This document shows, in pieces, positions 2,449 through 34,683 of a stretch of 34,683 bases of DNA; the stretch's first letter is position 1; the number at the start of each line of letters is the position of its first letter. The notes under the pieces are model-generated. The model made no database searches. It saw only the letters and a list, made by a program, of their open reading frames with translations, and was not told where the DNA came from. This DNA comes from a virus: positions 1 through 34,683 of IMG/VR virus record IMGVR_UViG_3300010354_000282; one strand, written 5' to 3'. A program made the position numbers and the translations under genes.

Positions 2449-2648
2449 AAGATGGTAAGATAACCGTAGCGTCTGTTAATCAAATGATAGTAACATTGGC
2501 TCGTTATACTCCAATGAGAACTACTTTAATAGTTAAACAAAACGGTACAATTATTGAAACAGTTTCTGTACTTAAGCAGCAAGAAACTGATCTTATTGGA
2601 ACTACACCTACAGTACCGAGAGTAGCGCCTACTGTTCCTCTCTACTAA
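2445..2648 (+). CDS. Small hypothetical protein, 67 aa
   Basis: The start codon lies in an ATGA overlap with the stop of the preceding gene, a typical coupled junction. The protein has two short beta-like segments (QMIVTLARYT and TTLIVKQNGTIIETVSVL) and ends in a Thr/Pro-rich tail (GTTPTVPRVAPTVPLY). Its 3' end overlaps the end of the minus-strand glycosyltransferase gene by four bases, tail to tail. No family is recognised. Confidence 0.6.
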   Translation: MKDGKITVASVNQMIVTLARYTPMRTTLIVKQNGTIIETVSVLKQQETDLIGTTPTVPRVAPTVPLY

Positions 2649-5380
2649 ACTTTAAATACGGTCATCCCATGGTGATCACAAAGTATACTAGTATCAGCGT
2701 ATAGTTTAAATCCTTTTTCTCTTGCTTTCATAGCAAAATATAGATCTTCAGAAAAAGTGTCGTTGTGGTTTATCGCTGATTTATAAACAAACTGTGGATA
2801 ACCTATATCTACTAGAACATTCTTTTTAATTAATGCACAACCAAAACCACATGCACCAATTTCTACCAAACCTTTACCTTTAATTTTATCATAAGGTATA
2901 TGAGTAAATCCACCTCTATCGTTAGCTTCAAATATTTCTAATACATGTCTATCAGAAAATCTTTGTATGTAAAGACCGGATACTACATCTTTATCGTGTG
3001 CAAGAAGCTTTACTAGAGTATCCTTAGGGAATGATATATCTGCATCTACTGCAAAAAGATAATCCCATTCACCCTTAACAACCCATTCAGCAATTAGATT
3101 GCGTACCTGATCTACATTATAACCATAGAAGTATTGAAATGTTGTTTCATATCCTTCTGGTACGATAAGATCATAGACCGCTTTAAATGTTTGCACTTCA
3201 ATATTACGAGCTGTAGGTATTGCTATAAGGATTTTTTTCTTCATATTATTCTTCACTACTGTTTCTTTTGCTTTAACTACCGGAACTGGTACTTCAGTTA
3301 CTTTTGTTTTATTACCAGTAATTTTAGCTGCATTTTTATTTTGTAATTCACCGTTCACTTTATAGTCGTTAAGCGGGTTGATATCATTATAGAGATAAAA
3401 GATATCAGGGACTGCAACTACCTTAGTTGGTCGCGCTTGTTCGATAATATTATAGAAAGTAGCATTATCACCACCAGCTTTAAACCATTCACCATTCTCA
3501 TCTTTAAATACGCTATCATCAATATTATTAATTAGACTCTTACGAAATACTCTAAGATGAGGATAGGGCATACCCCAGTTAAATTTATGCTGTCGGTATG
3601 CTCTGTCATTTTTAATATAGTCTGGGTACGGCTGTGCTACTAATGGTATATTATCTACCATAGACCAACAACTACCATATGCATAGTCGGTCTTATCATC
3701 AGCAAATAGGTTATTATAAAAATTAAAGATGTTAGGATTGTTAATTAATGCATCATCACCATCAACTAACATAACAATATTATCATCAGAAACATTCTCA
3801 CGTAATGCTCTGATCTGATTATGAACTGCACCTTTATTTTTTACATTATGGCTTATATGAAACTTATCTGTAATATCTCTATATTTACCTTTAATATATG
3901 CTAATATCAGATCTAGACTACCATCGTCACTGTTATCATCTACTATATACATTTTCCAGTTGTCATAGTTTTGAGTTGCAACTGAATCAATACATCTTAA
4001 AATATAATCTTTAGCATTATAGAAAGGTGTAATAATAGAGATAGGTTGTTCTTTCGAGAGCTTATAGGTACCCCATTCTTCCAGATTACTAAAACGTCTA
4101 TTGAATATTTTATGCACCCTATCGTTAATATAAGATACTTTACGGTATTCTTCTACTGGTAGATAAAGACCTAATCTACGATAGAAATGCTGTTTCCATT
4201 GTAATGCTACTGTATCCCATCCTGCAACCTCTTTAACTATATTACATGCATACATCTTTTGTTGATGCAGGTATGTGTTATGGTATGCTTCAAAAGCTTT
4301 TCTGGCAATCAATTTTGATTGTTCATTCTCATTAATTTGAGGGAACAAACTGTTAGGTGCAGCTGCATAATCAATAAAGTAACTAGCATAGTCTAATGCA
4401 GTTTCTTCTAATGCACCAAAACGAACAGTAATAAGAGGTGTATTATAGTAAAGAGACTCTAATGCAGAAATACTAAATGTCTCTGGGAAGGTACCTGGGT
4501 ATAGAAAATAACTTGCTTTTTGAAATACTTCTGCAACTTGCTTTTGAGATATAATACCGGTAAATGTTACATCTTGCTTTTTATATTCTTCTTTTTGTGC
4601 AAGCTCTTCAAGTTGACGTTGCTGTTCATCACCAGGTGAATTAGAACTAAAGTGGTAGTAACCACCAACTACCATTAACTTTGCATCCGGGAGATCTGAT
4701 TTAACTAAAGGCCATACTTTGTTTAGTAGGGTAGGAAGACCTTTACTTACTGATGCAACATATACAAATAAGTTTCTATCTTTTTGTGTAATATCTGTGC
4801 TATCAAAATATTTTGTAATACCGTTACGAGTCTGATAAATTTTATTCTTTAGTACTTCAAAATTTCTACGATTACCACCATGCCAGCAATTAGAGATATA
4901 AGAGGTGTGGAAATCTGAAAGAGTAAATATCTCATCAATAAAACCTTTTACGACCAGATCTTCTAATGCAGGATCTCCCCAGGTAAAAGTATCATGCATC
5001 CAAAGCACTTTATATTTGCTAGCCTGTTGAACTCTAGCAAATTTTGCATATTCTGTACGTGTATTATTATTGATAGAATCTCTAAGATGAGCAGGTACAA
5101 AAGGAATAATAGTGCGCAGTGATACCATAATATCGTAATGGCTATCGCATTGCATAAGATCATGTAGATGACGGTATCTTACACCATCATAAATACCAGG
5201 TGAACAATCTACATCTCTGCAGTTATTAAAAATGGTAACATCGAAACCAATTTTAGCTAGTTCTCTAGCCATAAGAACTGTGGCTGATTCAGAACCACCG
5301 AGCGCGCGTTTGCCTACCGTTTCACCATCATAAACTGTACCTATAGGATCGACAAACACAATAGACGGGCGATAAGACAT
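2645..5380 (-). CDS. Three-domain glycosyltransferase (GT-B + GT2 + GT-A-like)
   Basis: This 911-aa protein is the only gene on the minus strand. Residues 1 to about 400 form a GT-B (GT4-like) module with GGSES near residues 28-32 and the donor-site signature FPETFSISALE (E300 and E308). Residues about 445-665 form a GT2 (GT-A) module with ISIITPFYNA, VDDNSDDGS (D481-D482) and the metal-binding DGDD at 540-543. Residues about 713-911 form a third GT-A-like module with KILIAIPTARN, a VDAD motif (779-781), SEDLYF and a terminal DHHG. A low-complexity linker rich in Lys and Val (about 680-712) precedes the third module. Upstream on its own strand is a GAGG ribosome site just before the ATG. Donor and acceptor are unknown. 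Candidates are the neighbouring fibre proteins, host envelope glycans or modified DNA. The divergent position beside the largest collagen-like fibre favours a virion target, but this is inference. Confidence 0.9.
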   Translation of the reverse strand: MSYRPSIVFVDPIGTVYDGETVGKRALGGSESATVLMARELAKIGFDVTIFNNCRDVDCSPGIYDGVRYRHLHDLMQCDSHYDIMVSLRTIIPFVPAHLRDSINNNTRTEYAKFARVQQASKYKVLWMHDTFTWGDPALEDLVVKGFIDEIFTLSDFHTSYISNCWHGGNRRNFEVLKNKIYQTRNGITKYFDSTDITQKDRNLFVYVASVSKGLPTLLNKVWPLVKSDLPDAKLMVVGGYYHFSSNSPGDEQQRQLEELAQKEEYKKQDVTFTGIISQKQVAEVFQKASYFLYPGTFPETFSISALESLYYNTPLITVRFGALEETALDYASYFIDYAAAPNSLFPQINENEQSKLIARKAFEAYHNTYLHQQKMYACNIVKEVAGWDTVALQWKQHFYRRLGLYLPVEEYRKVSYINDRVHKIFNRRFSNLEEWGTYKLSKEQPISIITPFYNAKDYILRCIDSVATQNYDNWKMYIVDDNSDDGSLDLILAYIKGKYRDITDKFHISHNVKNKGAVHNQIRALRENVSDDNIVMLVDGDDALINNPNIFNFYNNLFADDKTDYAYGSCWSMVDNIPLVAQPYPDYIKNDRAYRQHKFNWGMPYPHLRVFRKSLINNIDDSVFKDENGEWFKAGGDNATFYNIIEQARPTKVVAVPDIFYLYNDINPLNDYKVNGELQNKNAAKITGNKTKVTEVPVPVVKAKETVVKNNMKKKILIAIPTARNIEVQTFKAVYDLIVPEGYETTFQYFYGYNVDQVRNLIAEWVVKGEWDYLFAVDADISFPKDTLVKLLAHDKDVVSGLYIQRFSDRHVLEIFEANDRGGFTHIPYDKIKGKGLVEIGACGFGCALIKKNVLVDIGYPQFVYKSAINHNDTFSEDLYFAMKAREKGFKLYADTSILCDHHGMTVFKV

Positions 5381-25246: not shown

Positions 25247-25942
25247 ATGAAAACTAAATTTGTAGATATGTTTCCTATCCCATTTAGCTTGTATACTTTA
25301 GGTGAACGTTCTAGACCTATGAATAAACAGCTTCTTAAAGACATTTATGAGAATATACCTAAAGAACAAGAAAATCATAGAACAGGCATAGGTGTATTTC
25401 AAAGCCCATCTGATATGGAAACTAAATTAGAAAGCTTTGCTTCTTTACAAGAAATGATAACTGAGATTATTCAACCGTTTCTAGCTAGAATAGGATTTAG
25501 AGGAAACACTAGAGAGTATATAGAAGTAAAAGCCTTTTGGTTTAACTATAATAATACTTCTCATGCATATCATTTACCTCATATTCATGGTAGTGGTAAT
25601 ACTATTTTAGCAGGAACATATTATCCTTCTTCTGGTATTGATAATGGTGTTCATTTATCTGATAGTCAAAATTTAGATGAAGAAGCTTCATTAGTAGCTA
25701 CATCACATCCAGATCCAGGCTCTATTGTTTTTATGGATCCTTGCTACACCACTAAAAAACAAATTCACACTGGCCACCAATTAATGAATTTACATCCGTA
25801 TTATGGGTTGCAGATGGCTTTAGTTCCAAAAGAAGGAACTTTAGTAATATTTCCAAATTATCTTCCTCATGCTGTTCTTCCAACAGGTAAAGAAAACTTT
25901 GAAAGATTTAGTATAGCATTTGCAGTAAATCTAATCAGATGA
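25247..25942 (+). CDS. Putative 2OG-Fe(II) oxygenase
   Basis: This 231-aa protein resembles the family of putative 2-oxoglutarate/iron(II)-dependent oxygenases found in marine phages. It has the first iron-binding region H109-x2-H112-x-H114 followed by GTYYPSSG, the residues MDPC (163-166), the distal His in FPNYLPHAV (H208) and the 2OG-binding Arg in ERFSIAF (R220). Which of H112 and H114 is the ligand, and whether an acid completes the triad, cannot be settled by eye. The substrate is unknown. Possible targets are side chains of virion proteins or a small molecule. It is inserted between the two terminase genes and its stop overlaps the gp17 start (ATGA), so it is expressed with the packaging and tail genes. 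Confidence 0.82.
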   Translation: MKTKFVDMFPIPFSLYTLGERSRPMNKQLLKDIYENIPKEQENHRTGIGVFQSPSDMETKLESFASLQEMITEIIQPFLARIGFRGNTREYIEVKAFWFNYNNTSHAYHLPHIHGSGNTILAGTYYPSSGIDNGVHLSDSQNLDEEASLVATSHPDPGSIVFMDPCYTTKKQIHTGHQLMNLHPYYGLQMALVPKEGTLVIFPNYLPHAVLPTGKENFERFSIAFAVNLIR

Positions 25943-30292: not shown

Positions 30293-31879
30293 ATGCAGCT
30301 ATTTGGTTTTGAAATTAAAAGAAAAAATGAAGTTCCTCCAGAATCTTTTGCTCCAGAAGTAAAAGATGATGGTGCTGTAGTTGTTGCTGCGGGTGGTGCG
30401 TATGGCACCTATATTGATTTAGATGGCACTGCTCGTACTGAAGCAGAATTAGTAGCCAAATACAGAGAAATTGCTTTACAACCAGAAATAGAAATGGCCA
30501 TTGATGACATTATCAATGAAGCTATTGACACGGATGCAGATAAGGTTGTAGAAATTAATGTTGATGACATCAAGTATGGTGATAGCGTCAAATCTAAAAT
30601 AAGAGAAGAATTTGAAAACATTCTAGAACTTTTAAATTTCGAAACAGAATGTTATGAATTGTTTAAACGTTGGTATGTTGATGGTCGTATGTATTATCAT
30701 ATTATTATCGATGAACAAAATCCACGAAATGGTATACAAGAATTACGCTACGTTGATCCAAGAAAGATTCGTAAGGTCCGTGAGATACAAAAGAAACCTA
30801 AAGGTGGTGTGACTGTACAACAGACAAAAAGAGAATATTTTGTCTACAATGACCGCTCTTTTATGCTTGCAGGTCAAAACGCAGGTATGCCAGTAGATAC
30901 AAATACTACTTCAGGTATTAGAATAGCAACTGATTCTATTTTACATATTACTTCAGGTCTTATGGATAAAAATAATGCATTGTGTTATTCTTATCTTCAG
31001 AAAGCAATTCGTCCACTCAATCAATTGAGAACATTAGAAGATGCTACTGTCATATATCGTATTTCTCGTGCTCCTGAACGCCGTATTTTCTATATTGATG
31101 TCGGTAATCTTCCTAAGATAAAAGCTGAACAATATCTTAGAGATATGATGACAAGACATAAGAATCGTCTTGTATATGATGCTACTACCGGAGAAGTTCG
31201 CGACGATCGTAAGTACATGACGATGCTAGAAGATTATTGGTTACCACGCCGTGAAGGTAATCGTGGTACAGAAATCACTACATTACCTGCTGGTCAAAAT
31301 CTTGGAGAACTACAAGACGTTCAATACTTCCAGAGAAAGCTGTTTCAATCTCTTAATGTTCCTATGTCTAGATTAGAACCAAGTTCTGCAGGATTTAATC
31401 TTGGTCGTTCAGCTGAAATTTCTAGAGATGAAGTTAAGTTTACTAAGTTTGTAGGTCGACTACGTAGAAGATTTTCACAACTATTCTTAAAAGCACTAGA
31501 AAAACAATTAGTACTTAAGGGTGTAGTTGCAGAAACAGATTGGCCTGAAATATCAAATCAAATTAACTTTGATTTTACTATTGATAATCATTTTGAAGAA
31601 TTTAAAGAAGCAGAAGTTTTATCTAATAGAATACAGGCTTTAAATCAAGTACAACCCTACATTGGTAAATATTTTTCTGATATATGGGTAAGAAAGAATA
31701 TTCTTCGTCAATCAGATGAAGATATAGAGCAGATGATGGAAGAAATATCAAAAGAACCACCTCCAGTAGAAGATATGTCTTTTGACAGAGATCCAGAAGG
31801 ACCACCACAAGCTGCTCCTAGTAAGTTTCAAAGACCACCACCTGTACCAGGATCACAGAGCTGGCCAGGAAAGCAATGA
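30293..31879 (+). CDS. gp20: Portal protein (T4 gp20 homologue)
   Basis: This 528-aa protein is almost the T4 length (524). Typical segments are TEAELVAKYREIALQPEIE, IDDIINEAIDTD, LFKRWYVDGRMYYHIIID, LRYVDPRKIRKVREI and RRIFYIDVGNLPKIKAEQYL, with LEPSSAGFNLGRSAEISRDE in the C-terminal half. It forms the dodecameric vertex where packaging, the neck and the prohead scaffold meet. It has its own late promoter and ends in a Pro-rich tail. Confidence 0.97.
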   Translation: MQLFGFEIKRKNEVPPESFAPEVKDDGAVVVAAGGAYGTYIDLDGTARTEAELVAKYREIALQPEIEMAIDDIINEAIDTDADKVVEINVDDIKYGDSVKSKIREEFENILELLNFETECYELFKRWYVDGRMYYHIIIDEQNPRNGIQELRYVDPRKIRKVREIQKKPKGGVTVQQTKREYFVYNDRSFMLAGQNAGMPVDTNTTSGIRIATDSILHITSGLMDKNNALCYSYLQKAIRPLNQLRTLEDATVIYRISRAPERRIFYIDVGNLPKIKAEQYLRDMMTRHKNRLVYDATTGEVRDDRKYMTMLEDYWLPRREGNRGTEITTLPAGQNLGELQDVQYFQRKLFQSLNVPMSRLEPSSAGFNLGRSAEISRDEVKFTKFVGRLRRRFSQLFLKALEKQLVLKGVVAETDWPEISNQINFDFTIDNHFEEFKEAEVLSNRIQALNQVQPYIGKYFSDIWVRKNILRQSDEDIEQMMEEISKEPPPVEDMSFDRDPEGPPQAAPSKFQRPPPVPGSQSWPGKQ

Positions 31880-31915: not shown

Positions 31916-32143
31916 ATGAGTAATAATGTTGAAGATATCCTCGCTTATGCTTGGAGTAAAGATGCTGTTAATTTGAAGTCTGCTCTTGGTCAAGAGATGA
32001 ATGCTCGTATTTCTGATCAATTAGATAATATGTATTCAGATGTAGCAGCTAGTATGTTTTCAGCAACTTCAGGTGAACAAGAAACTAACACTCCTCCTGT
32101 AGAAGAAATTCCAGCTGAAGGATTATCAAATGAAAACGTTTAA
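31916..32143 (+). CDS. Small prohead core protein, gp67-like (tentative)
   Basis: This acidic 75-aa protein is encoded directly after the portal, where T4 has gp67 (80 aa), a small prohead core protein. It contains [20 protein letters not shown] followed by [13 protein letters not shown], a helical segment I associate with small core proteins of marine T4-like phages. The C-terminal third is Glu/Pro-rich and probably disordered. The identity rests on position, size and acidity; sequence resemblance to T4 gp67 itself is not evident. It overlaps the next gene by 14 bases. Confidence 0.6.
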
Positions 32144-34544
32144 AGAGTTGGTTTCTGAAGTAGCACAACCACTTTCAAAAGGTGAGCAAAATTTTAAAGC
32201 CATGCATGGTAGCATGGATGATGCTATTTCAAAAGCAAAAAAAGTAGTTCCTGGTGTAACCGATCAAGATCACATTTTTAACGGTAATCCTAGAAAATTT
32301 GATGCACCTACAGCTTCTTATGAAAAAAATGAATCAGAATCTGCTTATGATAAAAGTTTAACAGCTGAAGCATTAGATCCAGTAGGTAAAGAAGATGCTG
32401 ATGTAAATAATGATGGTAAAAAAGACAAGACAGATTCTTATCTTAAGAATCGTCGCAAAGCAATAAGCGCTGCTGTCAAAGAAGAAAAAGATAAAAAGTG
32501 GACTGATGCTCATACTGCTTATTGGAATGATTTAGAAAAAAAAGCAGGTAATATTCTTCGTCAAGATAAAGTAGATAGATTGATTGCAGCTAAAAAAGCT
32601 GCAAAGCAAGCTACTAAAGTAAAAGAAGAAATAGAATTAGTTGATGAAAAAACTCTCACACCTGCAGAAATGAAAAAGAGAGAAGAAGTAGCTAAGGCTA
32701 TTGCTCGTGAAAATCCAAAAATGCCAATGGCTAAGAAGATGGCTATTGCAACTGCAACTGCAAAAAAAGTTACTGAAGCTCTTGTAGGTAAGCAAAAGAA
32801 TATTGATGCTAATAACAATAACAAAATTGACGCTCAAGATTTCAAACTGCTTAAATTAAAAAAAAAGGCAGTAAGTGAAGAAGCAGAAATTGATTATGAA
32901 GGTCAAATGGCAAAAGCAGAATTGAATGCCATTTGTGATAAAGCAGGAATTTTGTCTGAGATGTTAGATAATGACACTCAGCTAGAAGCCTGGTTACAAA
33001 CTAAAATCTCAAGAGCAAAAGACTATATCGACGCTGTACATGATTATCTAATGTACACTGATAAAGATGAACCAGCTTCACATGAAGGTGAAGAAGGTCA
33101 ATCAGGTGCAATGGCATCTAACTATACATCTTTCTTAAACCGTATGGGTGAAGAAGTAGAATTAGAAGAAGCTGTTACCGTAAAAAAATCTTCACACCCA
33201 TGGGGTAAAATGATCACTGTACATCATGGTTCATCACATTCTTTCCCATTACATCCAGAACATCAAGAAGCAATTGCTAAACTAAATGACGGTGAAAGCA
33301 CTTCATTCACTGATGAAACTAAGTCAAAAGTAACTGCACACAGAGAAGGTGACACAGTTCATCTTTCACATCGTGGTTCCAATACTAAGACTCCAGTAGC
33401 TATGTCACATTTCAAAGAAGAAAAAGAAATGTCACAGAAAAGCAAAGACGCTTATATGAACTACTGGAACGATCTTAATAGAGAAGCTGGTAATGAATTA
33501 AGAAGAGATAAAGTTAAAAAACTTCTAGCTGCAAAATTAACTGCTAAAAAGAAAGTTACTAAAGAAGAATTAGAATTAGACGAAGCATTTAAGTTAAAAA
33601 CTAAAGTTAGAATACATGCTCCAGGTAAAAGTTACCATAATATAGAAGGTACTATAGGTGAAGTACGTCCTGGATTATATAAAGGTGCTCCAAAAATGTT
33701 TACTGTATATCACGGTGAGCGTGGTGCTATTCAACTTCCTAAAGAAAACTTAAGACTTGTAAAAGAAGATGTTGAACTAGACGAAGCTAAACGCGGTCGT
33801 CCTCGTAAAGATGGTTCAAAAGCTGGTGATGATGAAGAAGGTGGTAGAGAGCATATCATTGTTCAACTACGTAAAGCAGAAAACCTTCGCGGTGAACGTC
33901 ATACTGAGTTTAATGATAGTTCAAAGCATAAGCTTCCTTTAGAGCATGTTAAGAAGGCTCTTAATATGCATACTAGCATGAAGCCAATTCAAAAAGGTGA
34001 ATTTGAAGCTCGTCTTGCAAAATCACATAAGTCATTCCATGATGCAATTTCTGGTAAACCTGCTGAACCTGCAAGACCAAGAGTATCACTTGCAAAATCA
34101 GTTAGAGAAGAAACAGAAGTAGTAGAAGATAAAGCTTATACTAGAGCATCTGATCGTACTTCTAAACGCGCTACTATACAAGCTGATGCTTCTGGACGAC
34201 CAGTAGTAAAAATGATACCTGTAAAGAGACGTAAAGAAATAGAAGTCATGCCTGAAGAAACTAACAAGGCAAACATGGCTCAAGATAGTATTGATCGTCT
34301 TAACGCAATGTCACCACAAGCATCTAAAGATAAAAAAGAAAAACTACCCCCTACACAAGGTAATAAGCCAATAGGTGGTGAAGAACAAGTTCAAGTAGGT
34401 AAGTTTTCTATGGCAGAAGAAATTACCCTAAATAAACTATATGAGAGTTTATCTGAACAAAACAAAGAGATGTTTAACACAAAAATGCAAACAGAAGAAG
34501 GTATACAATCACTTCTTAAATTTGCTCAGGAGCATGGATTCTGA
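32130..34544 (+). CDS. Multi-domain head-region protein with EF-hand-like loops, AT-hook and candidate protease sites
   Basis: This 804-aa, Lys/Glu-rich protein lies between the portal region and the end of the window, where T4 has head core and protease genes. Two EF-hand or dockerin-like loops are visible: D91[11 protein letters not shown]102 and D226[11 protein letters not shown]237. An AT-hook, KRGRPRK, spans 554-560. A helical block at about 123-173 is repeated at about 437-485 (YWNDL, then AGN, then LRxDKV). Small domains lie between, including an SH3- or KOW-like segment (about 490-545) and a helical segment (about 571-642). Several ELDEA or ELEEA sites (E347, E485, E552) fit the L-x-E cleavage rule of the T4 prohead protease gp21. 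It is probably a scaffold or internal head protein that is cut during maturation; this is inference. Confidence 0.75.
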
Positions 34545-34683
34545 TGTCTACTGTATATAAATTTCTTGGCACAGAAGTAAGTATTTCTTCTGCTAATACT
34601 GTTAACTCTTCTAAGCTTGTAAGAGTTATTAACACTACTAATGCAGTAGCAGTTCTTGCTGTTGCAAACTCTACAGCAACTTA
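34544..34683 (+). CDS. Hypothetical protein, 5' part only (runs off the window)
   Basis: An ATG overlaps the preceding stop by one base (TGATG) and the frame stays open to the last base of the window, about 46 codons. The visible part begins [18 protein letters not shown] and continues through VRVINTTNAVAVLAVAN, which looks beta-rich and small-residue-rich. I associate this with small structural proteins near head genes of marine phages, but no family can be assigned from the fragment. Confidence 0.6.
   Translation, partial: MSTVYKFLGTEVSISSANTVNSSKLVRVINTTNAVAVLAVANSTAT

Follow-up and report, generated by a model that had tools for sequence, protein, structure and literature searches.

Among the internal head proteins of bacteriophage T4 are an anti-restriction protein and a host-modifying enzyme. 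The fast evolution of their cargo makes such proteins, to our knowledge, nearly unrecognisable in all but a few model phages. That gp21 cleaves core and internal proteins, and that internal proteins carry leaders, is already known. The leader reads MKTFKEF in IPI and MKTYQEFIAE/A in IPII and IPIII, the latter ending in the gp21 motif (here and below, a slash follows the glutamate of the motif), and T4 uses leaders of this type to direct proteins into the head core (PMC3012670). Cleavage by the gp21 protease takes place after L/I-X-E, and gp22, gp67 and gp68 are among the proteins that it cuts (PMC9026906; PMC5694885). The T4 portal gp20 is not processed (PMC5694885), and the fragments of gp67 and gp68 are mostly removed from the head (PMC9026906). 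The corresponding T4 genes are arranged in the order 20, 67, 68, 21, 22, 23. Also described are the polyvalent proteins, which combine many domains in one phage protein and for which packaging and injection have been proposed (Iyer et al. 2017, PMC5512222).

Position of an 804-residue gene in the head-core gene cluster

The window analyzed here (the whole stretch of DNA, 34,683 nucleotides) is an IMG/VR virus fragment from an uncultured T4-like bacteriophage. The source record, of 34.7 kb, ends before gp21; the phage's own gp21, gp22 and gp23 lie outside the window, and comparisons on the protease side rest on the contigs of relatives. Gene order in the window is T4-like, running from neck, sheath stabiliser, terminase, sheath and tube to the portal, a 75-residue open reading frame (ORF) and an 804-residue gene that starts with ATG (Table 1). 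In longer relatives, we observed the order gp20, a gp67-like gene, the homologue of the 804-residue gene, a small protein, gp21, gp22 and gp23. The gp20-gp21 interval holds homologues in dozens of related contigs, the window itself showing the upstream side only, and wherever both genes are present the homologue lies between them. Since this gene order is shared with T4, the 804-residue gene is the counterpart of gene 68 by position. No sequence similarity was detected between T4 gp68 and the 804-residue family (hhalign probability 0.3%, E 0.18), and we thus name the protein a positional counterpart only. T4 gp67 and gp68 are likewise encoded between gp20 and gp21, and the T4 members are gp21 substrates, but gp68 has 141 residues compared to the 804 found here.

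Elsewhere in the window, a 2OG-Fe(II) oxygenase gene (25247-25942) lies between the genes for the small and large terminase subunits, and a 911-residue protein with matches to glycosyltransferase families is encoded on the opposite strand amid tail-fibre genes (2645-5380, minus strand).

Table 1. Features at the portal-proximal head-core locus, in window coordinates (res, residues of the 804-residue protein)
Feature	Position	Strand	Basis
gp20 portal protein	30293..31879	+	Pfam Portal_T4 1.8e-178
75-residue ORF at gp67 position, overlapping the start of the putative precursor	31916..32143	+	Synteny with T4 and relatives
Putative modular head-core/internal-protein precursor, 804 residues, T4 gene-67/68 position	32130..34544	+	ORF; gp20-gp21 interval in relatives
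Capsid-targeting-like leader, 10 residues, predicted cut after E10	32130..32159	+	Resemblance to T4 IPI/II/III
Calcium-type loop 1, 12 residues, res 91-102	32400..32435	+	Loop counts; module also in virion-annotated cyanophage protein
YWNDL helical repeat, first copy	32496..32615
VDE173/K, hydrophobic-x-E junction before module D	32640..32648	+	[LVI]xE/[KR] at module D starts of relatives
Module D (KREEV...AIATATAKK)	32640..32777	+	31/65 non-redundant proteins
Calcium-type loop 2, 12 residues, res 226-237	32805..32840	+	Loop counts; Pfam Dockerin_1 borderline
ELEEA, predicted cut E347/A348	33159..33173	+	Shuffles; module-start position
Module G, beta-alpha domain, res 348-430, weakly Whirly/PUR-like	33171..33419	+	AlphaFold2 model; VIA fold match
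YWNDL helical repeat, second copy	33438..33557	+	First copy upstream
ELDEA, predicted cut E485/A486	33573..33587	+	Shuffles; module-start position
Module I, basic, beta-like, res 486-546	33585..33767	+	L042 copy directly after VELDE/A
ELDEA, predicted cut E552/A553	33774..33788	+	[LI]xE/A kept as DTILE/A in L012, L015, L016
Module J, AT-hook tail and folded domain	33786..34064	+	29/65 relatives
AT-hook KRGRPRK, res 554-560	33789..33809	+	Sequence; disordered in model
Module L, conserved C-terminal helical domain	34410..34538	+	35/65 relatives; high pLDDT
Next gene, start only (cut by window end)	34544..34683	+	Relatives: small beta-rich-looking protein before gp21

Modular organization and predicted structure

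We retrieved 121 loci and read 65 non-redundant homologues from them. Complete members located between gp20 and gp21 range from 243 to 970 residues, and one incomplete member reaches 1057. The N-terminal region is conserved in 39/65 and the C-terminal helical domain in 35/65, with variable, exchangeable modules between them. Some loci carry the gene as two separate parts, of which the first encodes the N-terminal region and the second the C-terminal domain. The 804-residue protein consists of at least five modules, of which module D is the one most widely common to short relatives, and a Pfam scan of the protein returned no significant enzyme domain. Structure search identified uncultured Caudovirales "EF-hand domain-containing proteins" (e.g., A0A6J7WSR8) as direct relatives (E 4e-15, 28% identity); these are named for the calcium loop only, and the tables consulted give no function or processing for them.

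The two EF-hand-like loops and the AT-hook KRGRPRK reported in the initial annotation are both present. The loops, each of 12 residues, are of the EF-hand/dockerin type, with a Pfam Dockerin_1 score of 22.6 bits, below the cut-off of 22.9; they stand 135 residues apart and form no paired-loop domain. Across the family, we counted 18 calcium-type loops compared to 0.08 expected. Variants in which the first ligands are lost and the flanks kept (e.g., GDPDKIDADDF) occur in module E of L012, L025, L031, L032, L107 and L113. Since loop ligands are lost in several relatives, the predicted calcium binding does not extend to all family members. The AT-hook begins directly after E552/A553, with basic residues flanking its RGRP core, and this core is retained in most copies of module J.

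AlphaFold2 predicted confident folds for module G (about residues 348 to 428, with pLDDT >90 over most of it), for the body of module J (576 to 647, mostly >90) and for the C-terminal domain (761 to 801), and it predicted the AT-hook to be disordered. The full-length model reached a pLDDT of 57.6 overall, and because of this low confidence only domain boundaries were taken from it. All four internal sites considered below (173, 347, 485 and 552) fall within stretches of the full-length model with pLDDT <50; in a 457-residue model, E485 lies near the end of a low-confidence helix. Module G resembled proteins that bind nucleic acids, namely Whirly/MRP (VIA; Z up to 6.6, with 82 residues matched at 2.8 A) and PUR-alpha (Z 5.4), but both Z values are below the standout level of 8 and the fold match is therefore treated as a lead only. 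A Foldseek search of the PDB gave no match at E <= 0.001, and a sequence search of solved structures gave none.

An N-terminal leader similar to those of T4 internal proteins

The 804-residue protein begins with a leader of the MK[TS][FY] type that ends in hydrophobic-x-E. E10 is invariant in an alignment of relatives (A4). In 32 of the 39 relatives with the N-terminal region, a Glu lies just before [VIT]xP or [VIT]xxP, and a hydrophobic residue precedes this Glu by two positions in 32/32. A leader regular expression, composed after the leaders had been seen, matched 15 distinct plus-strand ORFs out of 3414, and 11 of these 15 belong to the 804-residue family.

T4 IPI, IPII and IPIII (and Alt) similarly carry an N-terminal leader of about 10 to 19 residues ending in L/I-x-E. 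Fast-evolving cargo after a conserved leader is a further likeness, as would be the head-core location that we propose here. However, the T4 internal proteins are separate short proteins with one leader each, whereas the 804-residue protein holds several modules in one chain and differs also in its 67/68 gene position and its internal cut motifs. The initial comparison with T4 internal proteins is supported by the leader.

Leaders of this kind were also seen in other genes. A 335-residue gene just after gp23 (L004:8368-9375) starts with MKTFSKFITE/A, and its product is, judged by this N terminus, a candidate for a separate internal protein. The gene run at L113:2-7940 has leader-like N termini (MKTLKSFLTE, MKQFKNFLNE, MINYRNLLE and MENKINKYAELIGE) and is possibly an internal-protein cluster.

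Protease-type motifs at module junctions

At least three ELDEA or ELEEA sites fitting the L-x-E rule of the T4 prohead protease had been claimed. We found EL[DE]EA at E347, E485 and E552, 3 occurrences compared to 0.011 expected, and 0/5000 shuffles reached 3. The bare T4 rule, [LI]xE, was not enriched in the 804-residue protein (7 observed versus 8.9 expected), and a generic LxE count in this protein alone was rejected as uninformative. The signal therefore resides in the fuller EL[DE]EA string and its position. Residues 348, 486 and 553 had been named correctly as the positions following these sites; the 10-residue leader and the VDE173/K junction had been overlooked. E173 is nearly invariant in alignment A4, and hydrophobic-x-E followed by K or R precedes module D in almost all copies.

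Among the relatives, [LI]xEA was found at the start of modules J, G and I in 25/37 copies (random placement: mean 0.30, maximum 3 in 2000 trials), the copies being related sequences and not independent events, since the linker upstream of a module is inherited along with it. [LI]xEA is absent from about a third of the module starts. When only module starts matched from profile position 1 were counted, which favours rows with Ala at P1', P1 was E in 28/28 and P3 was L, I, V or F in 28/28, with P2 variable; the same lack of independence applies to these counts.

In redundancy-reduced sequences from the same contigs, [LI]xEA occurred 60 times in the 804-residue family compared to 25.2 by shuffles. 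An excess was also observed in gp22 (84 versus 25.4), in gp21 (20 versus 5.1) and weakly in gp23 (7 versus 3.2), and there was none in gp19 (2 versus 2.7), gp20 (12 versus 9.0) or 333 other proteins (60 versus 54.7). The result for gp20 fits the escape of T4 gp20 from processing. Judged from these sequences, [LI]xEA marks those types of protein that are cut by gp21 in T4. The shifted spacings [LI]EA, [LI]xxEA and [LI]xxxEA were not enriched in the 804-residue family; [LI]xKA and the reversed AEx[LI] were also mildly enriched there. In most of the nearest relatives, gp21 itself carries LxE/A[KQ] close to the C terminus. This site frequently reads KELEE/AK, a string also present in the 804-residue protein. 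In gp23 of the clade, SLxE or SLLxE stands ahead of the conserved body.

The KELEE/AK string lies about 13 residues from the gp21 C terminus (L018, L022, L025, L031 and others), where it is likely, from its sequence, to be a self-cleavage site.

A proposed precursor cut in the young head

We interpret the 804-residue protein as a T4-type head-core/internal-protein precursor that is targeted by its leader and cut by gp21 at its joints and whose folded modules are retained with the DNA, a reading to which we assign a probability of roughly 0.6. Cutting inside the young head is probable given the leader, the protease-type sites between folded parts and a gene adjoining the protease. The N-terminal leader would carry the precursor into the assembling core, where a gp21-type protease would cut after hydrophobic-x-Glu at the module junctions, probably at E10, E173, E347, E485 and E552. 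This would free folded modules, among them G and a module J that now starts with the AT-hook. Of these, at least G and J would stay with the packaged DNA, and ejection into the host may follow. At least one released piece would be likely to bind DNA.

Cutting after E552 had been predicted to release a DNA-binding peptide starting with the AT-hook. The AT-hook would indeed stand at the new N terminus; according to the model, however, it would be left as a flexible tail on the folded J domain (576 to 647) and not as a bare peptide. Gene location, motif positions, conservation and leader similarity are established. The suggestion of a head polyprotein agrees with the synteny, with the motif at module starts and its enrichment in protein types cut by gp21, with the leader and with the virion annotation of module-sharing cyanophage proteins; what we infer is cleavage, head retention, the binding of DNA and calcium, and ejection.

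Alternative explanations

The strongest competing reading is that the pieces are cut and then cleared, the fate of most core fragments in T4. The protein would then be a pure core or scaffold component like T4 gp67 and gp68, cut by gp21, with the pieces leaving the head before DNA packaging. Its gene occupies the exact T4 67/68 position, the conserved N-terminal region and C-terminal helical domain surround a variable middle, and the removal of most gp67 and gp68 fragments is, by analogy, a caution against retention. However, one would not expect a throw-away scaffold to contain well-folded variable modules, an AT-hook and a possible nucleic-acid-binding domain. Related modules also occur in virion-annotated proteins of phage S-SCSM1, and module G is found in genes away from gp20/gp21 that have their own leader-like N termini. 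We thus consider clearance unlikely, while taking it as the most serious competitor to retention.

Less likely than this is an uncut virion structural protein, in which EL[DE]EA would represent flexible linkers or recombination joints of module shuffling. The modules are shuffled and repeated, and the linker strings are alike at the DNA level. Nevertheless, the protein pattern outlives the ELDEA string (DTILE/ARRGRPRK, DLQE/AVSVKK, DILRE/AVSVKK), with P1 and P3 conserved and P2 variable, and the motif is enriched in gp21 and gp22 and shows no excess in uncut or unrelated proteins, which makes this explanation improbable. Finally, tail genes are nearby in the window, but a neck or tail location in place of the head interior is very improbable given the gp20-gp21 position as in the T4 head-core cluster, the leader like those of T4 internal proteins and the protease-substrate motif.

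Beyond the retained-module precursor proposed for this phage, we tentatively suggest, at somewhat less than even odds, that the head-core operon of aquatic T4-like phages encodes an exchangeable "cargo polyprotein". A single leader would take its chain of unrelated modules into the prohead, the internal proteins cut from it at LxE/A by the maturation protease would enter the host with the DNA, and the modules would be swapped between phages by recombination at the joints. In the literature searched, which covered few subscription journals, we found no description of a long chain of exchangeable modules jointed at protease sites. Polyvalent proteins carry enzyme domains (ART, MPTase and others) that were not found in the 804-residue protein, and they are without its layout of gp21 sites. 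If true, the production of several internal proteins from a one-gene precursor would represent an economy new to head maturation. The combination of a leader and standard cut joints would offer a way to find internal proteins in uncultured aquatic phages and to predict their mature pieces.

Modules and leaders in other genes and phages

In L109-L111, the second gene of the split pair starts with MSKAFLDSLQE/VLKGNQHKID, so that a short leader with LxE at its end immediately precedes the calcium-loop module. In L114-L119, module G is found in another gene, away from gp20/gp21, behind a MKSFKSIRE-like leader and directly after LxE/A. The neighbours of this gene in L114 and L115 resemble, by eye, T4-type recombination/replication genes.

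When cultured phages were searched, neither the N-terminal region nor module G gave a match, and module J gave only weak matches, in Methylophilales phages. One of these, the cultured phage Melnitz, encodes a weak module J homologue after EQIAE/ASARR, next to a predicted nucleotidyltransferase (by eye) that starts with MKKFSEIIE/A. Virion protein annotation is carried by cyanophage proteins that have module B or a CTS-like leader. In S-SCSM1, two adjacent genes are annotated as virion proteins: gp280, which has a 15-residue module and EEVELDE in common with the 804-residue family, and gp281, an NMN adenylyltransferase (NMNAT) with the leader-like N terminus MKSFLQFLKE/AAE. These are separate genes and lie outside the gp20-gp21 interval in the stretch examined. 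NMNAT was found in the purified S-SCSM1 virion proteome, and its entry into the host was suggested as possible (PMC9602691).

NMNAT/cytidylyltransferase-like proteins of cyanophages and of one Methylophilales phage (L124:4820-6049, L125:1770-2930 and L126:2643-4595) have T4-like head leaders ending in LxE/A or IxE/A (MKSFLQFLKE/A, MKKFSAFLTE/A, MKKFSEIIE/A). Such leaders suggest that these proteins are head-internal and delivered to the host. At L108:4609-6953, two adjacent ORFs have in common a repeat (TVLMANGSLKPIEKIQPGEWVMSFD / AVMMANGKQKPISKIQEGEWVASFD) of Hint/intein-like appearance.
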